Shown here: positions 10,767 to 61,964 of the stretch, one piece after another
Numbering within the stretch: the first letter of the stretch is position 1
Layout of the letters: every line of letters starts with the position of its first letter
Origin: a virus
Reading direction: 5' to 3' (one strand)
DNA: 64,000 nucleotides
Virus record (IMG/VR): IMGVR_UViG_3300045806_000119
Location: 1 to 64,000 of that record
Translations under genes and position numbers: made by a program
Notes under the pieces: generated by a model
Databases searched by the model: none
Seen by the model: the letters and a program-made list of their open reading frames with translations, nothing else
Told to the model about the DNA's origin: nothing

Positions 10767-11768
10767 CTAGTGGTGAGGGTGAAACAGTCTAACAGAATTG
10801 CTCGCCGGTGTCATTAGCAGCTTTGTGGAGTGAATAGAAACGACCCTCGTCTTGCTCCTGTCCGTCAGCTCGCCGGGGTCCTTCGTGTCGTACTCCATGA
10901 CAGCCAGCTTCGGTCCGAACCTCGTCTTGTGCAGCCTCCTGGCCGCGGACAGCGTCACCACCTGCCCCGCCTCATCGTTGTCGAACGCGAGCACGAGCCT
11001 GTTCACCTGCGCGTGCCTCACGAGCACATCCGTCTGCTCCGCGCTCAGGTTGTCTCCCATCACGGCCACCGCGTGCTTGCCGAGCTGGTACATCCTCACA
11101 ACGTCTAGCTGACCCTCTACGAGGTAGAGAGCGTCGATCTCTTTCCCCGCCCACTTCTGCATCCCGTACAGGTGGAGCGCCTTCTGGAATTCGCTGTGAC
11201 GGTACTTCGACATCTGGAACTTGTCGTGGTCGAAGTCGAGACGCTCGGTGATCCCAACGAGCTTCCCGCGAACATCGCGAACCGGAATAATGATTTTGCA
11301 GTTCTGAAGGTCGTACCCGATCTCGTAGAACTTCAGCGACGCCTTGCTGAAGCCTCGGCCGAGCAGGTACTCCGCGCAGAATTTCCTGTACGGCCCAAGA
11401 ACGGCCTCGCTCAGCGTCGGATACTGGTCCTTCCTCGCCCGGTTCTTCCAGTCGGGCAGCTGCGGGAGCGCCTCTATGTTGAGCAGCGGTACGGGCGCCG
11501 TACCGACGAAGTCGTGCGCCTGCTGGAGCGTCAGGTGCTTGATGACCATGACGAGCCGCGCCATGTCTCCGCTCGCCTTGCAGCGGAAGCAGTGCCACCG
11601 GCCATTCGAGAAGACCGAAAAGCTAGTGGCATTGTCTCCTTTATGCACAGGACAGGCAGACCGCCAACGCCCATCGCCCGCTTTCCACGCAGAGTACGGG
11701 GCGAGGAGAGACTCGATGAGCGCTGTGTAGTCTGCCCTCTTCTCATCCTTGCCACCCGTACGGTTCAC
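10767..11768 (-). CDS. DNA primase, DnaG-like (zinc finger and Toprim)
   Basis: This 333-residue protein would synthesise RNA primers at the fork. An N-terminal zinc finger uses C39, H42, C60 and C63 (CPVH...CFRC). A helix-rich linker leads to a Toprim domain with LYLVEGQLDVVR near 214 (catalytic Glu) and LAFDNDEAG near 260 (the DxD-type motif). It starts with GTG at 11768, overlapping the helicase stop as GTGA. It is shorter than bacterial DnaG and lacks a helicase-binding C-terminal domain, as is usual for phage versions. The downstream partner genes are the zinc-rich protein and DNA polymerase. Confidence 0.85.
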   Translation of the reverse strand: MNRTGGKDEKRADYTALIESLLAPYSAWKAGDGRWRSACPVHKGDNATSFSVFSNGRWHCFRCKASGDMARLVMVIKHLTLQQAHDFVGTAPVPLLNIEALPQLPDWKNRARKDQYPTLSEAVLGPYRKFCAEYLLGRGFSKASLKFYEIGYDLQNCKIIIPVRDVRGKLVGITERLDFDHDKFQMSKYRHSEFQKALHLYGMQKWAGKEIDALYLVEGQLDVVRMYQLGKHAVAVMGDNLSAEQTDVLVRHAQVNRLVLAFDNDEAGQVVTLSAARRLHKTRFGPKLAVMEYDTKDPGELTDRSKTRVVSIHSTKLLMTPASNSVRLFHPHH

Positions 11769-13081
11769 GGAGCGCCCCCGTCTTCGGGCAGCCGCTCATC
11801 AACCTCCGCGTCCATCGCGTCGATGGCTTCCTGCTCCTCGATGTCGTCCCCCTCTTCGACCATGCTCTCGACGCTCTTCTGCGTCATGTCCTCGCACAGC
11901 CTCGCGTTCACCGTAAACAGCGTCTGCATGCCCTCACGAATAGCAGCCGTAAACAGCTTCACCTGCCTCTGTTTCCGGTCCTCGATGTCGACGGTGCAGC
12001 GTACGGCAACGTCGCACACCTGATAGAACGAGTCGCCGTACGCGAAGTCGTCAGCACCGTCCTGCGCCGAGGCGTCCTTCTTGTTCCGCGAGCGGTTCGC
12101 GTGAGTCGTCGCCACGATGGGCACCTTGCGCGACTTGCACGTCCGCTTCATCGCCCGAAGGATGACCGCAAGCTCCTTCCAGTCAGCCGACAGGTAGTTG
12201 ACGGAGTCGATGAGCACGACGTCCGGCTTGTACTCGTCGATCTGCGCCTGCAAGTCCGTGATGGACGCCTCACCTGCGCACAGCTGGCTCACGATGAGAT
12301 CCTCGTGATGCGCCAGCGACTGCATCGTCTCGAAGAACGTGGCCTCCGCCTCCTCGCCCAGCATGCCACGCGTAAACTGCGTGTAATTCACATTGGACGC
12401 GAGCGCGACGAAGCGGCGCTTGATCTCAAGGTCACTCAGCTCCTGCGACAGGAACAGGACGCGAAGGCCGTTAGAGTGAAGCAGCCGAGCGATCTCGACG
12501 AGCAGCCACGTTTTGAGGCACTTCGGGCGGCCGTAGAAGAACACCAGGTGCTCCCGCTGGATGCCTAGTGTGCTGACGTTGAGGGCCTCCCACGGGTACG
12601 GGTACCCCTTCAGCTTGGTGTCTCCGTCCCGCATCATGAGGTACTCGCTCTGCAGGTCGTCGAGCGAAGACTTGAGCGTGCTGCTCTCGTCCACGGTGTG
12701 CGCCTCGGCAAGAGTCACCACGGTCTTCTTCAGCTTCTCGAAGCCCGCCGTCGGATCGCCGGCCGTCAGCTCTCCGACCTCCTGGAGCACGCTCGCGATG
12801 TCCCCGTACAACTTCTGCTGCCGCAGCTTGTCGCAAAGGGAAATGAGGCTGTCCTCCGTCCGCACCGGCTCGAACGCCTGGAACGAGTCCGCGAAGCTCT
12901 CCCAGCTCGGGACGTCGTTGTACTTCGGGTTGTTGTACCACTGCACGAGGAAGATGAACGCCGCCTTCGTCGTCGACTCGAAGAAGAACGTGTGATCAAT
13001 CTTGTGCTTGAGCACGGTTTTCAGGTCCCGCTGGTCAATAATGGCGCTAATCAGCGCGCTCTCGAAAAGTTCCATCGCCAT
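11765..13081 (-). CDS. Replicative DNA helicase, DnaB-like
   Basis: This 438-residue protein has the DnaB/RecA-type ATPase core after a helical N-terminal domain. The P-loop reads GRPKCLKT at 184-191, where Leu replaces the usual Gly before Lys; the same sort of K(T/S)W-type P-loop is known in some phage DnaB relatives. Walker B is DVVLIDSVNYL near 270, and TTHANRSRNKK near 310 matches the sensor and DNA-loop region. GGAG lies eight bases before the ATG at 13081. It is coupled to the primase by GTGA, so helicase and primase are made together. Confidence 0.82.
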   Translation of the reverse strand: MAMELFESALISAIIDQRDLKTVLKHKIDHTFFFESTTKAAFIFLVQWYNNPKYNDVPSWESFADSFQAFEPVRTEDSLISLCDKLRQQKLYGDIASVLQEVGELTAGDPTAGFEKLKKTVVTLAEAHTVDESSTLKSSLDDLQSEYLMMRDGDTKLKGYPYPWEALNVSTLGIQREHLVFFYGRPKCLKTWLLVEIARLLHSNGLRVLFLSQELSDLEIKRRFVALASNVNYTQFTRGMLGEEAEATFFETMQSLAHHEDLIVSQLCAGEASITDLQAQIDEYKPDVVLIDSVNYLSADWKELAVILRAMKRTCKSRKVPIVATTHANRSRNKKDASAQDGADDFAYGDSFYQVCDVAVRCTVDIEDRKQRQVKLFTAAIREGMQTLFTVNARLCEDMTQKSVESMVEEGDDIEEQEAIDAMDAEVDERLPEDGGAP

Positions 13082-17541: not shown

Positions 17542-18947
17542 CACGGAACCCTCCTGTTGACGTGTCGTATCTCAGCCTTCGCATCAATGCTTATAATAGC
17601 GGACTCCATGTCGGTCTCTTTCCTCTTCAGAGCGTCGTGACAGAAAACCAGTACAATCGGATTTCTCTTGTTTGCGTACTCCCTGTCGATACGCCCCACG
17701 GCCTGCCGCAGGAAGCCGACGTCATCGGTCGGGTAGAGGAGCACCAGCGTATCGAGCCTCGGGATGTTGAGCGCACGACTGGCGATCTTGTCCGTCGCGA
17801 AGATCATCTGGCGGTTGAACGCTTCGTCTCGCTCGGCGCCCTTGACTGCCCCGGTGACGAGCCCGGCGTCAGCGTGCTCCGAGAGCACCTCGGCCAGCAT
17901 CCCCAGCTGCTCCGTGCGCGAGCCGAGCACGAGGGCCGAGCGCCCTGCCGTGGCCACTTTCATCAGCTCCGTGGTGACGATCGCGTTGAACGCCAGGCTA
18001 CCCGATGCCGCCGTCTCGTAGGCGGGGCGATTGAGGATGTGGCGCCCGAGTCCGGGGGCGTAGCGCCGACACTTCGCCAGCCGCTGCTCGCTCACGTAGG
18101 GCGGGGCGTGAACGAAGTACCACGAGCTGCTGCGCTCTCTCGTTAGGTCGACGTAGCAGGGCTGCATACCCCCCGCGTGCATCATGAAGACCGCTTCTTG
18201 TCCGTCCGCCCGCGCGGGGGTGGCGGACAGGAGGAGGCGCTCCCCTGGAAAGTTAGGCAAAACTACTCTAAAGCTTTCGGCGCCCATGCAGTGAGCCTCG
18301 TCCACGATGACGAAGCCAAACTGGTCGTAGAACGCCGCGTCGAATTCCTGCTGCGCGAGCGTGTGGACCAAGGCGATGGTGAAGTGCTCGCCGATTTCAC
18401 GGCGGCTCGCCTGCACGACCCCCACATCGACGTCGAGCATCGACGGGAAGCACGCGAGTATCTCCCCGAGCCACTGCGGCACGAGAAAGTCGCGGTCAAC
18501 GATGATTAGGGTCTTTTTATTCCGTTGTGCAGCGAGCCACAAGGCGCTCGTGGTCTTCCCTTTTCCACACCCGAGGCAGAGCAGCTTGTCGTAGTGGGGC
18601 AGAAGATGAGGAGCGACCTTCTTCTGCAGGGGCGTCAGTTCTCGCGTGAACTGGAGCGGCTCCGTGGAAGGGAACTCAGGCCGGATGTCCTCGAAGAGAA
18701 CCCGGTCCTTGCTCAGCATCGCCGCCGCGATGTTGTATCCGCGCGGCAAGATGACGTGGTCGCCATCCTCTTCCCACAAAGCAACGCCAGACGCCGCGTC
18801 GGCTGCGTAGCCGAGCATCGCCTGTACCTCTGCTCCCTTGTTGTCGACCCACAGCTCGTGACGGATGCGGTCAAAGTCGACTGCGCTCTTTTTCACGCGG
18901 TAGTGGCTGCCTAGCTCTACGATTTCCATTATTGCGAATAGTCGCAC
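17541..18947 (-). CDS. SF2 DNA helicase (UvsW/DEAD-box-like)
   Basis: This 468-residue protein is a superfamily 2 helicase. Q-like motif LTPLQKKVAPHLL lies near 105, P-loop CLGCGKGKTT at 124-133, DEAH box VIVDEAHCMG near 213, SATPAR near 240 and RQAVGRIDRE (motif VI) near 405. The size and order are like UvsW/RadD-type enzymes, which unwind branched intermediates or R-loops and can switch replication modes. The frame begins with GTG at 18947; an ATG at 18929 is possible and neither has a strong ribosome site. It is the first gene after the late-region terminator, so it should have its own promoter, which I could not identify. Confidence 0.82.
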   Translation of the reverse strand: MRLFAIMEIVELGSHYRVKKSAVDFDRIRHELWVDNKGAEVQAMLGYAADAASGVALWEEDGDHVILPRGYNIAAAMLSKDRVLFEDIRPEFPSTEPLQFTRELTPLQKKVAPHLLPHYDKLLCLGCGKGKTTSALWLAAQRNKKTLIIVDRDFLVPQWLGEILACFPSMLDVDVGVVQASRREIGEHFTIALVHTLAQQEFDAAFYDQFGFVIVDEAHCMGAESFRVVLPNFPGERLLLSATPARADGQEAVFMMHAGGMQPCYVDLTRERSSSWYFVHAPPYVSEQRLAKCRRYAPGLGRHILNRPAYETAASGSLAFNAIVTTELMKVATAGRSALVLGSRTEQLGMLAEVLSEHADAGLVTGAVKGAERDEAFNRQMIFATDKIASRALNIPRLDTLVLLYPTDDVGFLRQAVGRIDREYANKRNPIVLVFCHDALKRKETDMESAIISIDAKAEIRHVNRRVP

Positions 18948-57129: not shown

Positions 57130-58788
57130 TCATCGCCGGTACCTGTCGGCTCTGCTGGGGTTGAAGTCCTGCCTACCCCCTCTTGTAGCATAAAAGGGGT
57201 TGTCAACTGCTTCCGCGCCTGCATCAACGCGTGGCTGCGCCGCCGCCCAGCAGCACAGGGCCGCTGAGTCGCAGTAGTCGTCATGATCCCCCTCTGGCGC
57301 GAAGCACCGAATGAACACGCCGACGCGGTCCTTGAGCAGCTCCTCGTGCTCATGGACGAACTGCTGAAACTCCGTGCTCTTGCGCATCTCCTCGCCCGCG
57401 GCGTAGCGCATCCGGCCGGCTTCCAGCTCCTGAATGTAATACTTGTACGCCTTGTCGTTGCCAACGTGCGACATCATGAACGGGACCACCTGCATCCCCG
57501 GCACGAGCCCTTGCAGTTGCTCGGTCAACGGGTCGCCGATGCCTGTAGCGTCGCACACGACCGTGTCGACGGAGTACCGCCCCAGCGCCTCCACGACGGC
57601 AGCGAGGATGTCGTGCCATTTTCGACCAGGTATCTCGTACCATGCCACAATTCGTTTAGTGTGGTAGGTCGGCGTGTCTTCGCCCGGCCGGATGACGGCG
57701 CGCATGTCAATGATGGGCACATCGTCCACCTCGGCGATGGTCAGGATGGTGCAGTCGCGCTTCCGCCCGTAGTCGAGCCCCGCGACGTAGCGTCGTGAAT
57801 ACCCGCTAGTGACGGCCTCCAGCAGGTAGTCTCCCGCCTCCGCGAACGCGTCGCGGTCAATGGCACCCGCGTTGGCCTCTTGCCACAGCAGGCGGAAGTT
57901 CTGGCGGAACTCCTCGTTCTCGATGTTCCCGCCGAGGCGCTTCAACTCCCCGCTCACCCACTTCTCGTAGGCCAGATGCTTCGGGTCCTTCGTCTCCTCG
58001 TAGCGCCTCCGCTTGTCGACGATGACGTGCGTGTACGGGAACTCGAAGTGGTTCCGCTTCCCCGTCAGCTTCTCCGTCTCGACGTTGTAGATAATCGACT
58101 TCCGAAAGTTCCCACGCAGCGCGTTGGCCGTGCCAATCTTTATCATTGACCCATTTGTAGCGGCCAGCATCGGCGCGATCTCTTTCGACAGCTTCACCTC
58201 TCCTACGAGCTGCGCCTCGTCGATGATGATGAGGTGAAAAGTCAGCCCTTCCACCGTGCTGCTCTCGCTCGCCGTCTGCGCAGTGACGAAGCTCCCGTTC
58301 GTCCAGGACACAAGGTCGCCTCGACTGGCAGCCACGGCCACGTTGATGTCCGGGTCGGAGTAAATCTCTAACGAAGACTCACGCTGAGCCCTCTGCCGGA
58401 TGCGTCCGTAGATGATGCCCGACTGCTGCTGCTTCGGCGCGAAGATGCCGATCCAGAACCCCTCCCTGTAGCGGCTCAGCCGAGGGTCGTCCGGGAACGC
58501 CTTTGCGAGTGCGGGCAAGATGATGCAGAGAGACGACGCCAGCGACGCGACGGCCTCACTTTTCCCGCTCTGCCGGCACCATAGCGCCGTGAGCACAGCT
58601 CCCTCATCTGCGAGGATGGCCTCCACCGAGCGGTGCATGAACACCAGCTGGTAGTTGTAGAGCTGGATGCCGGCGGGCTCGTTGTAGACCCGTACAAATT
58701 GCATTATCACGTCTGCCAGCCGCTTGTTGTCGAGCGGGCAGACGGACTTGAGCTTCTCTACAGGGACATTTCCACTAATTGGTTCCAT
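57130..58788 (-). CDS. Terminase large subunit
   Basis: This 552-residue protein would package DNA into the prohead. ATPase: Walker A CRQSGKSE at 71-78, Walker B HLIIIDEAQ at 185-193. Nuclease: GLDYGRKRD with D339, CDATGIGD with D413, and EGDHDDYCDS near 500. AAGGA lies nine bases before the ATG at 58788; an upstream in-frame start lacks a site. The start overlaps the end of the Prp-like protease gene by about 30 bases. No small subunit can be named. Confidence 0.9.
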   Translation of the reverse strand: MEPISGNVPVEKLKSVCPLDNKRLADVIMQFVRVYNEPAGIQLYNYQLVFMHRSVEAILADEGAVLTALWCRQSGKSEAVASLASSLCIILPALAKAFPDDPRLSRYREGFWIGIFAPKQQQSGIIYGRIRQRAQRESSLEIYSDPDINVAVAASRGDLVSWTNGSFVTAQTASESSTVEGLTFHLIIIDEAQLVGEVKLSKEIAPMLAATNGSMIKIGTANALRGNFRKSIIYNVETEKLTGKRNHFEFPYTHVIVDKRRRYEETKDPKHLAYEKWVSGELKRLGGNIENEEFRQNFRLLWQEANAGAIDRDAFAEAGDYLLEAVTSGYSRRYVAGLDYGRKRDCTILTIAEVDDVPIIDMRAVIRPGEDTPTYHTKRIVAWYEIPGRKWHDILAAVVEALGRYSVDTVVCDATGIGDPLTEQLQGLVPGMQVVPFMMSHVGNDKAYKYYIQELEAGRMRYAAGEEMRKSTEFQQFVHEHEELLKDRVGVFIRCFAPEGDHDDYCDSAALCCWAAAQPRVDAGAEAVDNPFYATRGGRQDFNPSRADRYRR

Positions 58789-59105
58789 TGCTTGGGTTCC
58801 TTGAAGCACGTATCGCGGAGGTCGAACTCGAAGTGACCATCATACGCGCACGCAATCAAGTGCAAGCCCATCAGCACGAACTCCAGCTGCGGCAGCCGGT
58901 GGAACGGTACGTCGAGGACCATGTCCCCGCAGCCATCGACATCCCGGTCCTTGTACGCTTCGACCGGCACGAGGTACGCGTTGAGCGTCATCATCAGCGC
59001 GCTCGTCCCAGCGCACACAAGCGGACCCTCATCCGTCTGCTCTGCGTGGCCGAGGACGCTGAGTCGTACGCCCTCCTTCGTGTCCTCTGTCGTGACCTGG
59101 ATCAT
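58758..59105 (-). CDS. prp: Prp-family (DUF464) ribosomal-processing-type cysteine protease
   Basis: This 115-residue protein fits the Prp family: MIQVTTEDT start, His20 in VLGHAEQT, Cys31 in LVCAGTSALMM, with 11 residues between as in the known H/C dyad (GHA...VCAGxSA). It also shows the later hydrophobic helix (EFVLMGLHLIACA). Prp of Firmicutes removes the N-terminal leader of ribosomal protein L27 and, in staphylococci, of phage 80alpha capsid and scaffold proteins. Here the gene is in the phage head cluster next to the terminase, among genes with similar leaders. GGAG lies five bases before the ATG. Family call is strong; targets are inferred. Confidence 0.85.
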   Translation of the reverse strand: MIQVTTEDTKEGVRLSVLGHAEQTDEGPLVCAGTSALMMTLNAYLVPVEAYKDRDVDGCGDMVLDVPFHRLPQLEFVLMGLHLIACAYDGHFEFDLRDTCFKEPKQWNQLVEMSL

Positions 59106-59710: not shown

Positions 59711-60433
59711 TCAACTAGTGGGTAATACCTCTGCACGGATGAGGCATTGGTGACATTTTCCGCACGCCGGGAAGAACTCGCACGAATACGACATCGACAA
59801 GTCGACGCCGAGTTGCACCCCAAGCCCCACGATCTGCCGCTTCGTTTTGTGCGTGTCGAGAAACGGCGCCACCACGGTTAGCGGCTTTGAGAAGCCTCCC
59901 GAGACGGAGAGCGTATTGAACGCCTTCACGAACCCAGGTGCCGTGTCGCAGCCTGGTCCCACAAAGTCGTCCCTCCACCCGTTTGCTTCCCACTCCGGTT
60001 CATCGAATTGAAACGCCGTGTAGACGTACCGCATTCCGCGTGAAATGGCGTAGGCGCCCGCTCTCGCAAGGAACGCCACGTTCCTCCCCTGGATGATGTC
60101 CCACTTGTTGTCCAGGTAGTCCTGGTACTCCTCGGGGCTCATCTTGAGCGCTTCGTAAGCATCGTCCATCGCCTCGGGGTAGCTCTTCTCGTTGAAGATG
60201 TGACCCCGCCCGCGGGCATACTCAGGCCAGTCGATCTTCTCCCGCCGGTATCGGAGCCCCAGCTCCAAGCAATGATGAGCAACCAGGGCCTCCTGGTGGT
60301 CCGCGCTCGCTTGTCCATAGTCGCAGAACATGACCTCTGTCTTCGCTCCGCCTCCGGCTGCTCTGTCCCGGCAGGCCAGAAAGTGCATTAGCACGGTAGA
60401 GTCGATACCTCCGCTCGCGAGAAGGAGCTTCAT
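59711..60433 (-). CDS. Second QueC-like enzyme
   Basis: This 240-residue protein has the PP-loop SGGIDSTVLM at 7-16, a variant of the usual SGGLDS, and a zinc site CEFFPACGKCHQC near 215-227. The middle has an added helical stretch (EAMDDAYEALKMSPEEY) and QGRNVAFLARAGAYA, the counterpart of vPaRN in QueC. It differs clearly from the QueC at 61266, so it is not a recent copy. It may act on a related 7-deazaguanine, as amide-forming enzymes do. The start overlaps the DUF5591-like gene by four bases (ATGA). Confidence 0.78.
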   Translation of the reverse strand: MKLLLASGGIDSTVLMHFLACRDRAAGGGAKTEVMFCDYGQASADHQEALVAHHCLELGLRYRREKIDWPEYARGRGHIFNEKSYPEAMDDAYEALKMSPEEYQDYLDNKWDIIQGRNVAFLARAGAYAISRGMRYVYTAFQFDEPEWEANGWRDDFVGPGCDTAPGFVKAFNTLSVSGGFSKPLTVVAPFLDTHKTKRQIVGLGVQLGVDLSMSYSCEFFPACGKCHQCLIRAEVLPTS

Positions 60434-61209
60434 AGGACTTCTTTCAGCCCTGCCAACATGCCCTCATCGAGTAGGTCACGGTAGTCGCACCTCTTAGGGA
60501 AGGCGAAAGGAGCCACTACATCTACGTCGAGCATGTGCAGCCCCTCCCGGATGTCGTGTTGCAGCATGTCTGAGTAGACGACCAATTTTTCGTACGGGCG
60601 CTCTGAGAAATACTGTTTCACGCTCGAGGCCACGCGGTCAAAGTACGGCAGCCCCGCGTCGTACTTTGGGAGCGCGTCCCACGCCCCCTCCGGCGCGCAG
60701 CCGACAACGCTAGACACGACGATCAACTCGTAGTCGTGTCCGGCCAGTTCCCGCACTCTCTTGTGTAACGGGCTGGGGTACGGCTTGTCCGCCGCGCAGG
60801 GGAGGAGGATGCACTTGGTCTTCCCCGACAACGGCATGTCCCGGACGAGGTGCATGAAGCCAAGGATCTCTGGCCGCCAGAACCCCGAGTACGTCGCGAT
60901 GGGGAACGCCTCCTCGTAAATGTGCCGGCGTGTGCCTCCCCACCGCATGTCTGCCCGCCACAAAGCGTCGACGAGCACGGGCTCCGCCGCGCACGCAGCT
61001 TCCACTTCGTGCCGCCGGAAAGGCGCCCTGCTGTCGGCATCGAACTGCTTCTCGCCGAGGTACCACAGCAGCGGGTGCCAGCTTCCAGGTGCTCCTACGA
61101 GCATCAGCTCTCCGTCCGGTGCCTCGGCTACCGCCTGGAGCTGCTTCAGCCAGCCGCCGTACGTGTCTTCATAGGTCTTCCCTGACTTAGCGAACTGTAT
61201 AGTCGTCAT
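60430..61209 (-). CDS. DUF5591-like (archaeosine synthase core-domain) protein
   Basis: This 259-residue protein has KCILLPCAADKPYPSPLHKR near 128-147 and VVGCAPEGAWDALPKYD near 170-186. Both fit the PCSxxKPYxxSxxH and LGxxPxELExxYPxxxYD blocks of DUF5591, the domain of archaeosine synthase ArcS that follows its TGT part. The family acts on 7-deazaguanine bases. The transglycosylase part itself is missing, so a stand-alone domain is suggested. It lies between two QueC-like genes and overlaps one, so all three should act in one pathway. Exact reaction not known. Confidence 0.68.
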   Translation of the reverse strand: MTTIQFAKSGKTYEDTYGGWLKQLQAVAEAPDGELMLVGAPGSWHPLLWYLGEKQFDADSRAPFRRHEVEAACAAEPVLVDALWRADMRWGGTRRHIYEEAFPIATYSGFWRPEILGFMHLVRDMPLSGKTKCILLPCAADKPYPSPLHKRVRELAGHDYELIVVSSVVGCAPEGAWDALPKYDAGLPYFDRVASSVKQYFSERPYEKLVVYSDMLQHDIREGLHMLDVDVVAPFAFPKRCDYRDLLDEGMLAGLKEVL

Positions 61210-61273
61210 TTCTCAGATTCCTAACGTGAAAGGTTCCTTTTTCAGTCGCCGGTACCAGCTGGAGCTTACCCAT
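61187..61273 (-). CDS. Possible 28-residue mini-gene between queC and the DUF5591-like gene
   Basis: An ATG at 61273 lies inside the end of queC, four bases after GGAGGTG, and gives MGKLQLVPATEKGTFHVRNL plus eight residues. It ends within the next gene. The strong ribosome site may only serve coupling. Short length makes it doubtful. Confidence 0.35.
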   Translation of the reverse strand: MGKLQLVPATEKGTFHVRNLRNDDYTVR

Positions 61274-61964
61274 GGAGCACCTCCGCCGGGTCGTCGATGC
61301 CCAGGTCAGAGAACGCCTTCGCCCGGATGATGCACGAATCGCACGCCTTGCAGCTGCCTCCCTTCCCACCGGCGTAGCAGCTCCACGTCAAGTGCAGGGG
61401 AGCGCCCACTTCAAGCGCCTTCTCGATGACCTCTCTCTTCGTAGAGTTCACGATGGGTGCTCGCAGAGCTATCGGGCTCCCTCTCACACCCCGCACGGTG
61501 CCGAGCGCGAGCGAGCGTTCCATCGCCTCGACGTACTCGGGCCGGCAGTCCGGGTATCCGCTGTAATCGAGTGCGTTGAACCCAGCCCACACTTCGTCCG
61601 CCCCGATAGCCTCTGCGAACGCTGTACCGATGCTCAGGAAGATGCTGTTCCGCGCCGGCACGTAAGTCACGGGAATGTCGGCGTTCATCGTCGACTCGTC
61701 CCGGTTCTGAGGAACCTCCAGGTTCGACGTCAGCGCCGAAGTATCGAAGTCGAGGCCGGCCAACCCCACTATGCGCAGCGAAAAGGTCGCCTTCCCTTCC
61801 CGCGCGTAGTGGTGGACCACCTTCGCGGCCGAGTCCAGCTCTCGCCGGTGCCTCTGCGCGTAGTCGAAAGCGACGGGATAGACCTCTCTCCCCTCCGACA
61901 ACGCGATGCCCATGGCAGTCGTGGAATCCAGACCACCGGAAATGAGAACAATAGCCTTCTTCAT
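61266..61964 (-). CDS. queC: 7-cyano-7-deazaguanine synthase QueC
   Basis: This 232-residue enzyme makes preQ0 from 7-carboxy-7-deazaguanine with ATP and ammonia. It has PP-loop SGGLDSTTAMG at 9-19, YVPARNSIFLSIGTAFAEA near 100 as the conserved vPaRNxxf motif, EVWAGFNALDYSGYPDCRPE near 126-145, and the zinc site CYAGGKGGSCKACDSC near 196-211. Phages with such genes may modify their DNA. FolE, QueD, QueE and a DpdA-type transferase are not in this window. AAAGGA lies nine bases before the ATG. Confidence 0.92.
   Translation of the reverse strand: MKKAIVLISGGLDSTTAMGIALSEGREVYPVAFDYAQRHRRELDSAAKVVHHYAREGKATFSLRIVGLAGLDFDTSALTSNLEVPQNRDESTMNADIPVTYVPARNSIFLSIGTAFAEAIGADEVWAGFNALDYSGYPDCRPEYVEAMERSLALGTVRGVRGSPIALRAPIVNSTKREVIEKALEVGAPLHLTWSCYAGGKGGSCKACDSCIIRAKAFSDLGIDDPAEVLHG

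Follow-up and report, generated by a model that had tools for sequence, protein, structure and literature searches.

A phage gene cluster encoding a stand-alone ArcS core and a divergent, Cap9-like QueC protein, with a possible role in 7-deazaguanine DNA modification

The window, i.e. the whole stretch of DNA analysed here, comprises positions 1 to 64,000 of the 70,863-bp IMG/VR record IMGVR_UViG_3300045806_000119 (G000 below). Judging from the Pfam matches on the record (tail sheath, gp19-type tube, baseplate proteins, capsid, portal and a replication module), the virus is a contractile-tailed phage. Near the right end of the window, upstream of the terminase, three minus-strand genes lie in a row, encoding QueC-1, a 259-aa DUF5591 protein and QueC-2. 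The features of the locus are:

57130 to 58809, minus strand: terminase large subunit (PHROG 2, E 5.3e-23), which anchors the synteny with the relatives G012 and L005
59711 to 60433, minus strand: QueC-2, a predicted divergent QueC-like PP-loop enzyme with Cap9 as its closest solved relative (TIGR00364 under the cut-off, Cap9 profile, SCE motif)
60430 to 61209, minus strand: putative stand-alone ArcS core of 259 aa (PF17884, NF040592, 2q07 by profile and fold)
61187 to 61273, minus strand: 28-aa mini-ORF overlapping the QueC-1 stop (similarity to L005 ORF 5511-6275)
61266 to 61964, minus strand: QueC-1, predicted canonical QueC, CDG to preQ0 (TIGR00364, QueC motifs, PDB 2pg3)

The three main reading frames proposed in the initial annotation are present at these coordinates, all on the minus strand. 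Its description of them as all overlapping or adjacent applies to the DUF5591 and QueC-2 genes, which overlap by 4 bp, but not to the DUF5591 and QueC-1 genes, which are 56 bp apart. The larger part of the mini-ORF falls in this gap; approximately 17 of its 28 residues are identical to the end of ORF 5511-6275 of L005, the nearest relative. In L005 the counterpart of the mini-ORF shares its reading frame with the last part of a methyltransferase-like ORF, which was not found in the window.

QueC-1 scored 215.7 bits with the Pfam QueC model and 188.8 bits with TIGR00364, for which the equivalog cut-off is 150.3, and is thus a member of the canonical QueC group. Two QueC structures lead its PDB matches, 2pg3 being the first (E 8.4e-34), and it has every motif of the QueC signature as defined in PMC13329287, namely YxQxHxxE (YAQRHRRE), VPxRN (VPARN), YPDC, C(x)8CxxCxxC and CY. 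The locus had been described as holding two divergent QueC-like proteins, which is correct only for the protein at 59711-60433. L010 encodes at 11377-12153 a protein of the QueC-1 type with substitutions at every zinc cysteine (TSYDG...TDNNHSN).

By profile and predicted fold, the 259-aa protein is a stand-alone ArcS catalytic core. Its match to Pfam DUF5591 (PF17884), 21.8 bits and E 1.8e-4, is below the Pfam cut-off of 26 and doubtful on its own; the identity was accepted because each of the 13 family members examined with Pfam gave a match to PF17884 (best E 1.4e-10) and to no other family, and because both the profile and the fold lead to PDB entry 2q07. The NCBIfam ArcS model NF040592 matches only residues 66-174 (E 1.7e-7), at 30.2 bits compared to the more than 440 bits of full-length ArcS architecture. 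The family profile found a single credible PDB chain, 2q07 (AF0587; E 5.9e-6), the alignment covering the catalytic block. This archaeal protein is entitled a protein of unknown function, and we read it, from its DUF5591 match, as an ArcS half. The AlphaFold model of the 259-aa protein (mean pLDDT 80, pTM 0.62) has an N-terminal domain at approximately residues 1-115 and the DUF5591 domain at approximately 116-259, with PCAADKPYPSPLH. In Foldseek, 2q07 alone was below E 0.001 with this model, and VIA-align gave Z 14.7 for 2q07 (rmsd 2.5 A over 131 residues) and Z 6.5 for the next structure. The ArcS-like DUF5591 region claimed initially, and the comparison with the ArcS fold suggested as a check on it, are both borne out by these results. 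For residues 1-115 of the full-length model no VIA-align match was obtained, and PHROGs had no family for the protein.

The family consists of 13 members, namely that of the window, one each from two Vibrio phages and the others from 11 IMG/VR loci, with L012 alone representing the stretch it shares with L013. In the alignment PC, A, DKPYP and H are invariant, and the invariant PCxxDKPYPxxxH aligns with PCTARKPYLTSRTH of 2q07. The phage protein and archaeal ArcS thus have in common the DUF5591 domain, its fold and the catalytic block PC-x3-KPY...H. The ArcS model is 575 aa long, compared to the 259 aa of the phage protein, which has an N-terminal domain of its own and in which presumably neither the TGT-like N-terminal half nor the PUA end of ArcS is present. 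The phage DUF5591 genes also differ from ArcS in lying beside DNA transglycosylase genes and in that no RaSEA partner was found. When viral sequences were scanned with the 259-aa sequence alone, no loci were found; an alignment including the two Vibrio proteins gave 11 loci, and a rescan with 13 sequences returned the same 11. A search for cellular relatives in 84,980 genomes gave nine pattern stretches, none of which was confirmed. In the literature searched no paper on DUF5591 was found and, among the papers listed for GR7B and GR11A, none on the gene cluster. One viral record, L001, ends at 18243-18864 inside a tandem protein repeat, and the assembly therefore probably stopped there.

The gene neighbourhoods tie this protein to 7-deazaguanine DNA modification, since a QueC gene lies less than 1 kb from the DUF5591 gene in all 14 records carrying the latter, and both a DpdA-type DNA transglycosylase and FolE are found in 11 of the 14 (G009 and G010 being counted separately although they share one stretch). 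The link to phage DNA modification made in the initial annotation is thereby upheld. The 9g type accounts for seven of the DpdA proteins and the Motura/GR type for the other four. Four of the 9g-type sequences belong to the search model itself, and the same four match phage DpdA by blastp; the Motura/GR type has DSGGxQ and CxCxxC, and its profile matches the archaeal TGT 1iq8 (E 5.7e-8). The three records without DpdA and FolE are that of the window and two fragments of 21 and 27 kb, the longer of which has a near-identical partner, G010, with both genes. DUF5591 adjoins DpdA in L006, L008, L009 and L010. The Vibrio phages GR7B and GR11A are isolates which encode the three cluster genes along with DpdA and FolE. 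In GR7B, GR11A and G011 DpdA is distant from the cluster, which supports the earlier guess that the transglycosylase lies elsewhere. It is also conceivable that the genes act in tRNA modification of the host or are carried along without being expressed, and the lack of DpdA in the window record fits with this; with DpdA in most of the DUF5591 records, a protein too short at 259 aa to include the ArcS PUA end, and motifs kept across distant phages, we consider it very improbable. L007, L009, L010 and L011 have, next to DUF5591 and in addition to QueD, another PTPS/T-fold protein, of the C16 family.

The genome search for DpdA, FolE, QueD and QueE proposed in the initial annotation gave none of the four by profile searches of the 70,863-bp record, and none of several models tried revealed a stand-in for DpdA in the window. 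The pathway is therefore incomplete in the sequenced part. All four genes are present in the relative G012 (L055; 92,966 bp), which matches 36 G000 ORF entries, a few of them nested in one another, has a terminase large subunit 41% identical to that of the window, and keeps the G000 gene order almost entirely after a circular shift. Positions 1-450 of G000 pair with 21.2-21.7 kb of G012, where QueD, QueE and FolE follow at 22.0-24.3 kb; the synteny therefore places FolE, QueD and QueE just past one contig end of the window record. For DpdA a contig gap is a weaker explanation, because the G012 DpdA lies approximately 4 kb before the G012 QueC-2 and the corresponding part of G000 is sequenced and has none. 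It is possible that the precursors are supplied by the host.

We give an even chance to the cluster being the late part of a phage pathway which builds a modified 7-deazaguanine for the phage's own DNA. A DpdA-type transglycosylase, outside the sequenced part of this genome but encoded in the relatives, would exchange guanine in DNA for preQ0. In the order of steps which we infer, the 259-aa ArcS core, without tRNA-binding parts, would then couple the nitrile to an amine, most probably lysine, giving a preQ0-lysine-type amidine. The addition would probably proceed via the invariant cysteine, at which a thioimide can be proposed by analogy with QueF. The ArcS of T. kodakarensis is reported to add lysine to preQ0 in tRNA and also, without tRNA, in the nucleoside and the 5'-monophosphate; RaSEA finishes G+ after ArcS, and once lysine has been added the base exchange can no longer be reversed (PMC11298593). 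No RaSEA (TIGR01210), the enzyme that in Euryarchaea turns the ArcS product into G+, was above the cut-off in the 15 records, which are possibly fragments, and three control genomes scored above it. With RaSEA not found, an unfinished lysine-type amine adduct of preQ0 appears likelier than G+, unless ammonia serves as a direct substrate of the phage enzyme. The earlier suggestion of a base beyond preQ0, perhaps G+, is thus kept as regards an amidine-type product, while G+ itself becomes doubtful. By analogy with ArcS, a lysine-type amidine in DNA would be the simplest reading. The Gat-QueC/DpdA system of phage 9g, which gives dG+, is likewise a preQ0-based phage DNA modification with an amidine step after preQ0; unlike in 9g, this step is here predicted for an ArcS core and not for a fused glutamine amidotransferase domain.

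GR7B, GR11A and L014 encode in the same gene run a lysine 2,3-aminomutase (KamA family, above the cut-off) and a weakly ATP-grasp-like (GAR synthetase) protein, and these genes suggest amino acid chemistry. The aminomutase occurs in three of the 14 DUF5591 records and is absent from that of the window. A GNAT/FemX-like reading of the 351- and 365-aa Vibrio proteins had no significant PDB match and remains a guess.

Vibrio phage nt-1 has been reported to encode ArcS (PMC6884629). Like the 259-aa protein, its VPFG_00169 (226 aa), which we infer to be the ArcS meant, is a stand-alone DUF5591 protein encoded within a preQ0 gene cluster of a phage. It scores 25 bits with the family model, has a degenerate motif (LCTTTRPYENSRKW) in which the KPY lysine is an arginine and the histidine is lost, and has no N-terminal domain. 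The DNA of nt-1 contains mainly dPreQ0 (0.11% of G) with traces of dADG and dG+, and the available part of the report mentions no lysine adduct (PMC6884629). For this distant protein, the base profile thus favours hydrolysis, ammonia transfer or little activity over lysine transfer. The DUF5591 protein of the window might similarly be a nitrile hydratase or a direct ammonia transferase, so that the phage DNA would carry dADG or dG+, and it has been proposed that phage ArcS may act like the amidohydrolase DpdC (PMC6884629). Considering how far the nt-1 protein has diverged, that the archaeal ArcS motif is intact in the window family, and that the archaeal enzyme studied transfers lysine, we regard this as rather improbable and prefer lysine transfer for the window family.

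QueC-2 is clearly different from QueC-1. It scored 66.4 bits with Pfam QueC and only 50.1 bits with TIGR00364, far below the cut-off of 150.3, and YPDC is replaced by GCDT and CY by CE. QueC-2 is present in five DUF5591 records and in G012; all six proteins have SCE in place of CY, and in all six the YPDC tyrosine is lost and the aspartate kept. As the tyrosines of YPDC and CY are both essential in E. coli QueC (PMC13329287), QueC-2 is unlikely to make preQ0. The QueC-2 family profile matched Cap9 (9nto) with 62.7 bits and QueC with 49.7 (3bl5) and 37.3 bits, and the single sequence gave 29.4 bits for Cap9 and 12.4 for QueC; QueC-1 shows the reverse preference. In the fold comparison Cap9 was first by both VIA-align and Foldseek (Z 20.0, QueC Z 19.1), but with the Z scores tied the fold was not taken as proof of kinship with Cap9. 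Like Cap9 of type IV CBASS, the closest solved sequence, QueC-2 has a QueC fold, SGGxDS, GQA and the zinc motif CE(x)nCxxCxxC (SCEFFPACGKCHQC in the window). It differs in having lost the tyrosine of the Y-x-D base recognition motif, and in being longer, phage-borne and located beside QueC-1 and DUF5591, with no recognised CD-NTase beside it; no CD-NTase was listed among the 50 larger ORFs of the record scanned with Pfam. The PADLOC QueC model failed to separate QueC-1 from QueC-2.

The cellular search with QueC-2 gave at least 35 loci. Among the matches listed, 33 encode a protein that has an SCY-type zinc motif and scores better to QueC-1; L128 is split between two frames, each of them QueC-1-like, and L143 has a weak QueC-2-only match without the zinc motif. 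Among the 33 viral loci, SCE proteins occur only on the L005, L014 and L055 contigs. Besides QueC-2 and DpdA, L055 (G012) encodes a third QueC-like protein, with CGDC at the YPDC position. DUF5591 was not found in G012, and QueC-2 and DUF5591 are therefore not obligate partners.

QueC-2 is predicted to be an amide ligase and not a preQ0 synthase. It would probably use ATP, as a Cap9-like enzyme, to join an amine by an amide bond to an activated 7-deazaguanine carboxylate or to the carboxylate of the amino acid adduct. Two other reactions are conceivable, both of which we consider unlikely. QueC-2 could be a Cap9-like protein modifier, linking 7-deazaguanine to a phage or host protein at its N-terminus, with counter-defence or modification of the virion as the purpose: Cap9 is its best solved relative by profile and single sequence, the CE zinc motif is common to both, and the aspartate with which Cap9 is reported to read the base (PMC13279940) is kept in all six proteins. 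The stacking tyrosine of Cap9 is lost, however, no CD-NTase family is listed for the scanned ORFs, and in 5/5 of the DUF5591 phages having QueC-2 it lies beside QueC-1 and DUF5591, as expected of a base pathway. Alternatively, QueC-2 could only amidate CDG to 7-amido-7-deazaguanine, an intermediate of the QueC reaction (PMC13329287), as it keeps SGGxDS, RN, the aspartate and the zinc cysteines while lacking the two essential tyrosines. With a canonical QueC and an ArcS core alongside, such a half-reaction would be superfluous, and the new invariant acidic residues D211 and E219 suggest a different nucleophile.

Taken with the predicted amide ligase, the lysine-type amidine raises the tentative and somewhat doubtful possibility of a new DNA base class, a 7-deazaguanine-amino acid (with lysine, or with beta-lysine in phages that have the aminomutase) made by an ArcS-core amidine synthase and elaborated by the Cap9-like QueC-2, giving positively charged side chains. 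If the lysine-type amidine is correct, phages would use the lysine transfer chemistry of archaeal tRNA on DNA without the final G+ step, and the predicted base would be new as far as we know. A 2023 paper in NAR is said to describe further phage 7-deazaguanines. As far as our searches show, the new elements are a viral DUF5591 family that has an intact motif and an N-terminal domain of its own, the linkage of this family to DpdA, and the neighbouring Cap9-like QueC-2. The family offers the question of phage ArcS a testable subject with an intact active site, better suited than the degenerate nt-1 protein, and QueC-2, if correctly assigned, would represent a relative of the deazaguanylation enzyme Cap9 carried by phages, connecting phage DNA modification with a bacterial immune enzyme.

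A different gene run was observed in Xanthomonas phage PhiXhv-12 (L041, 7406-16663), which encodes Gat-QueC and a distant DUF5591-like protein without the PC..KPY motif, as well as an acyltransferase-like protein and an annotated aminoacyl-transferase, deacetylase and glycosyltransferase. This run possibly gives a sugar- or amino-acid-decorated 7-deazaguanine.
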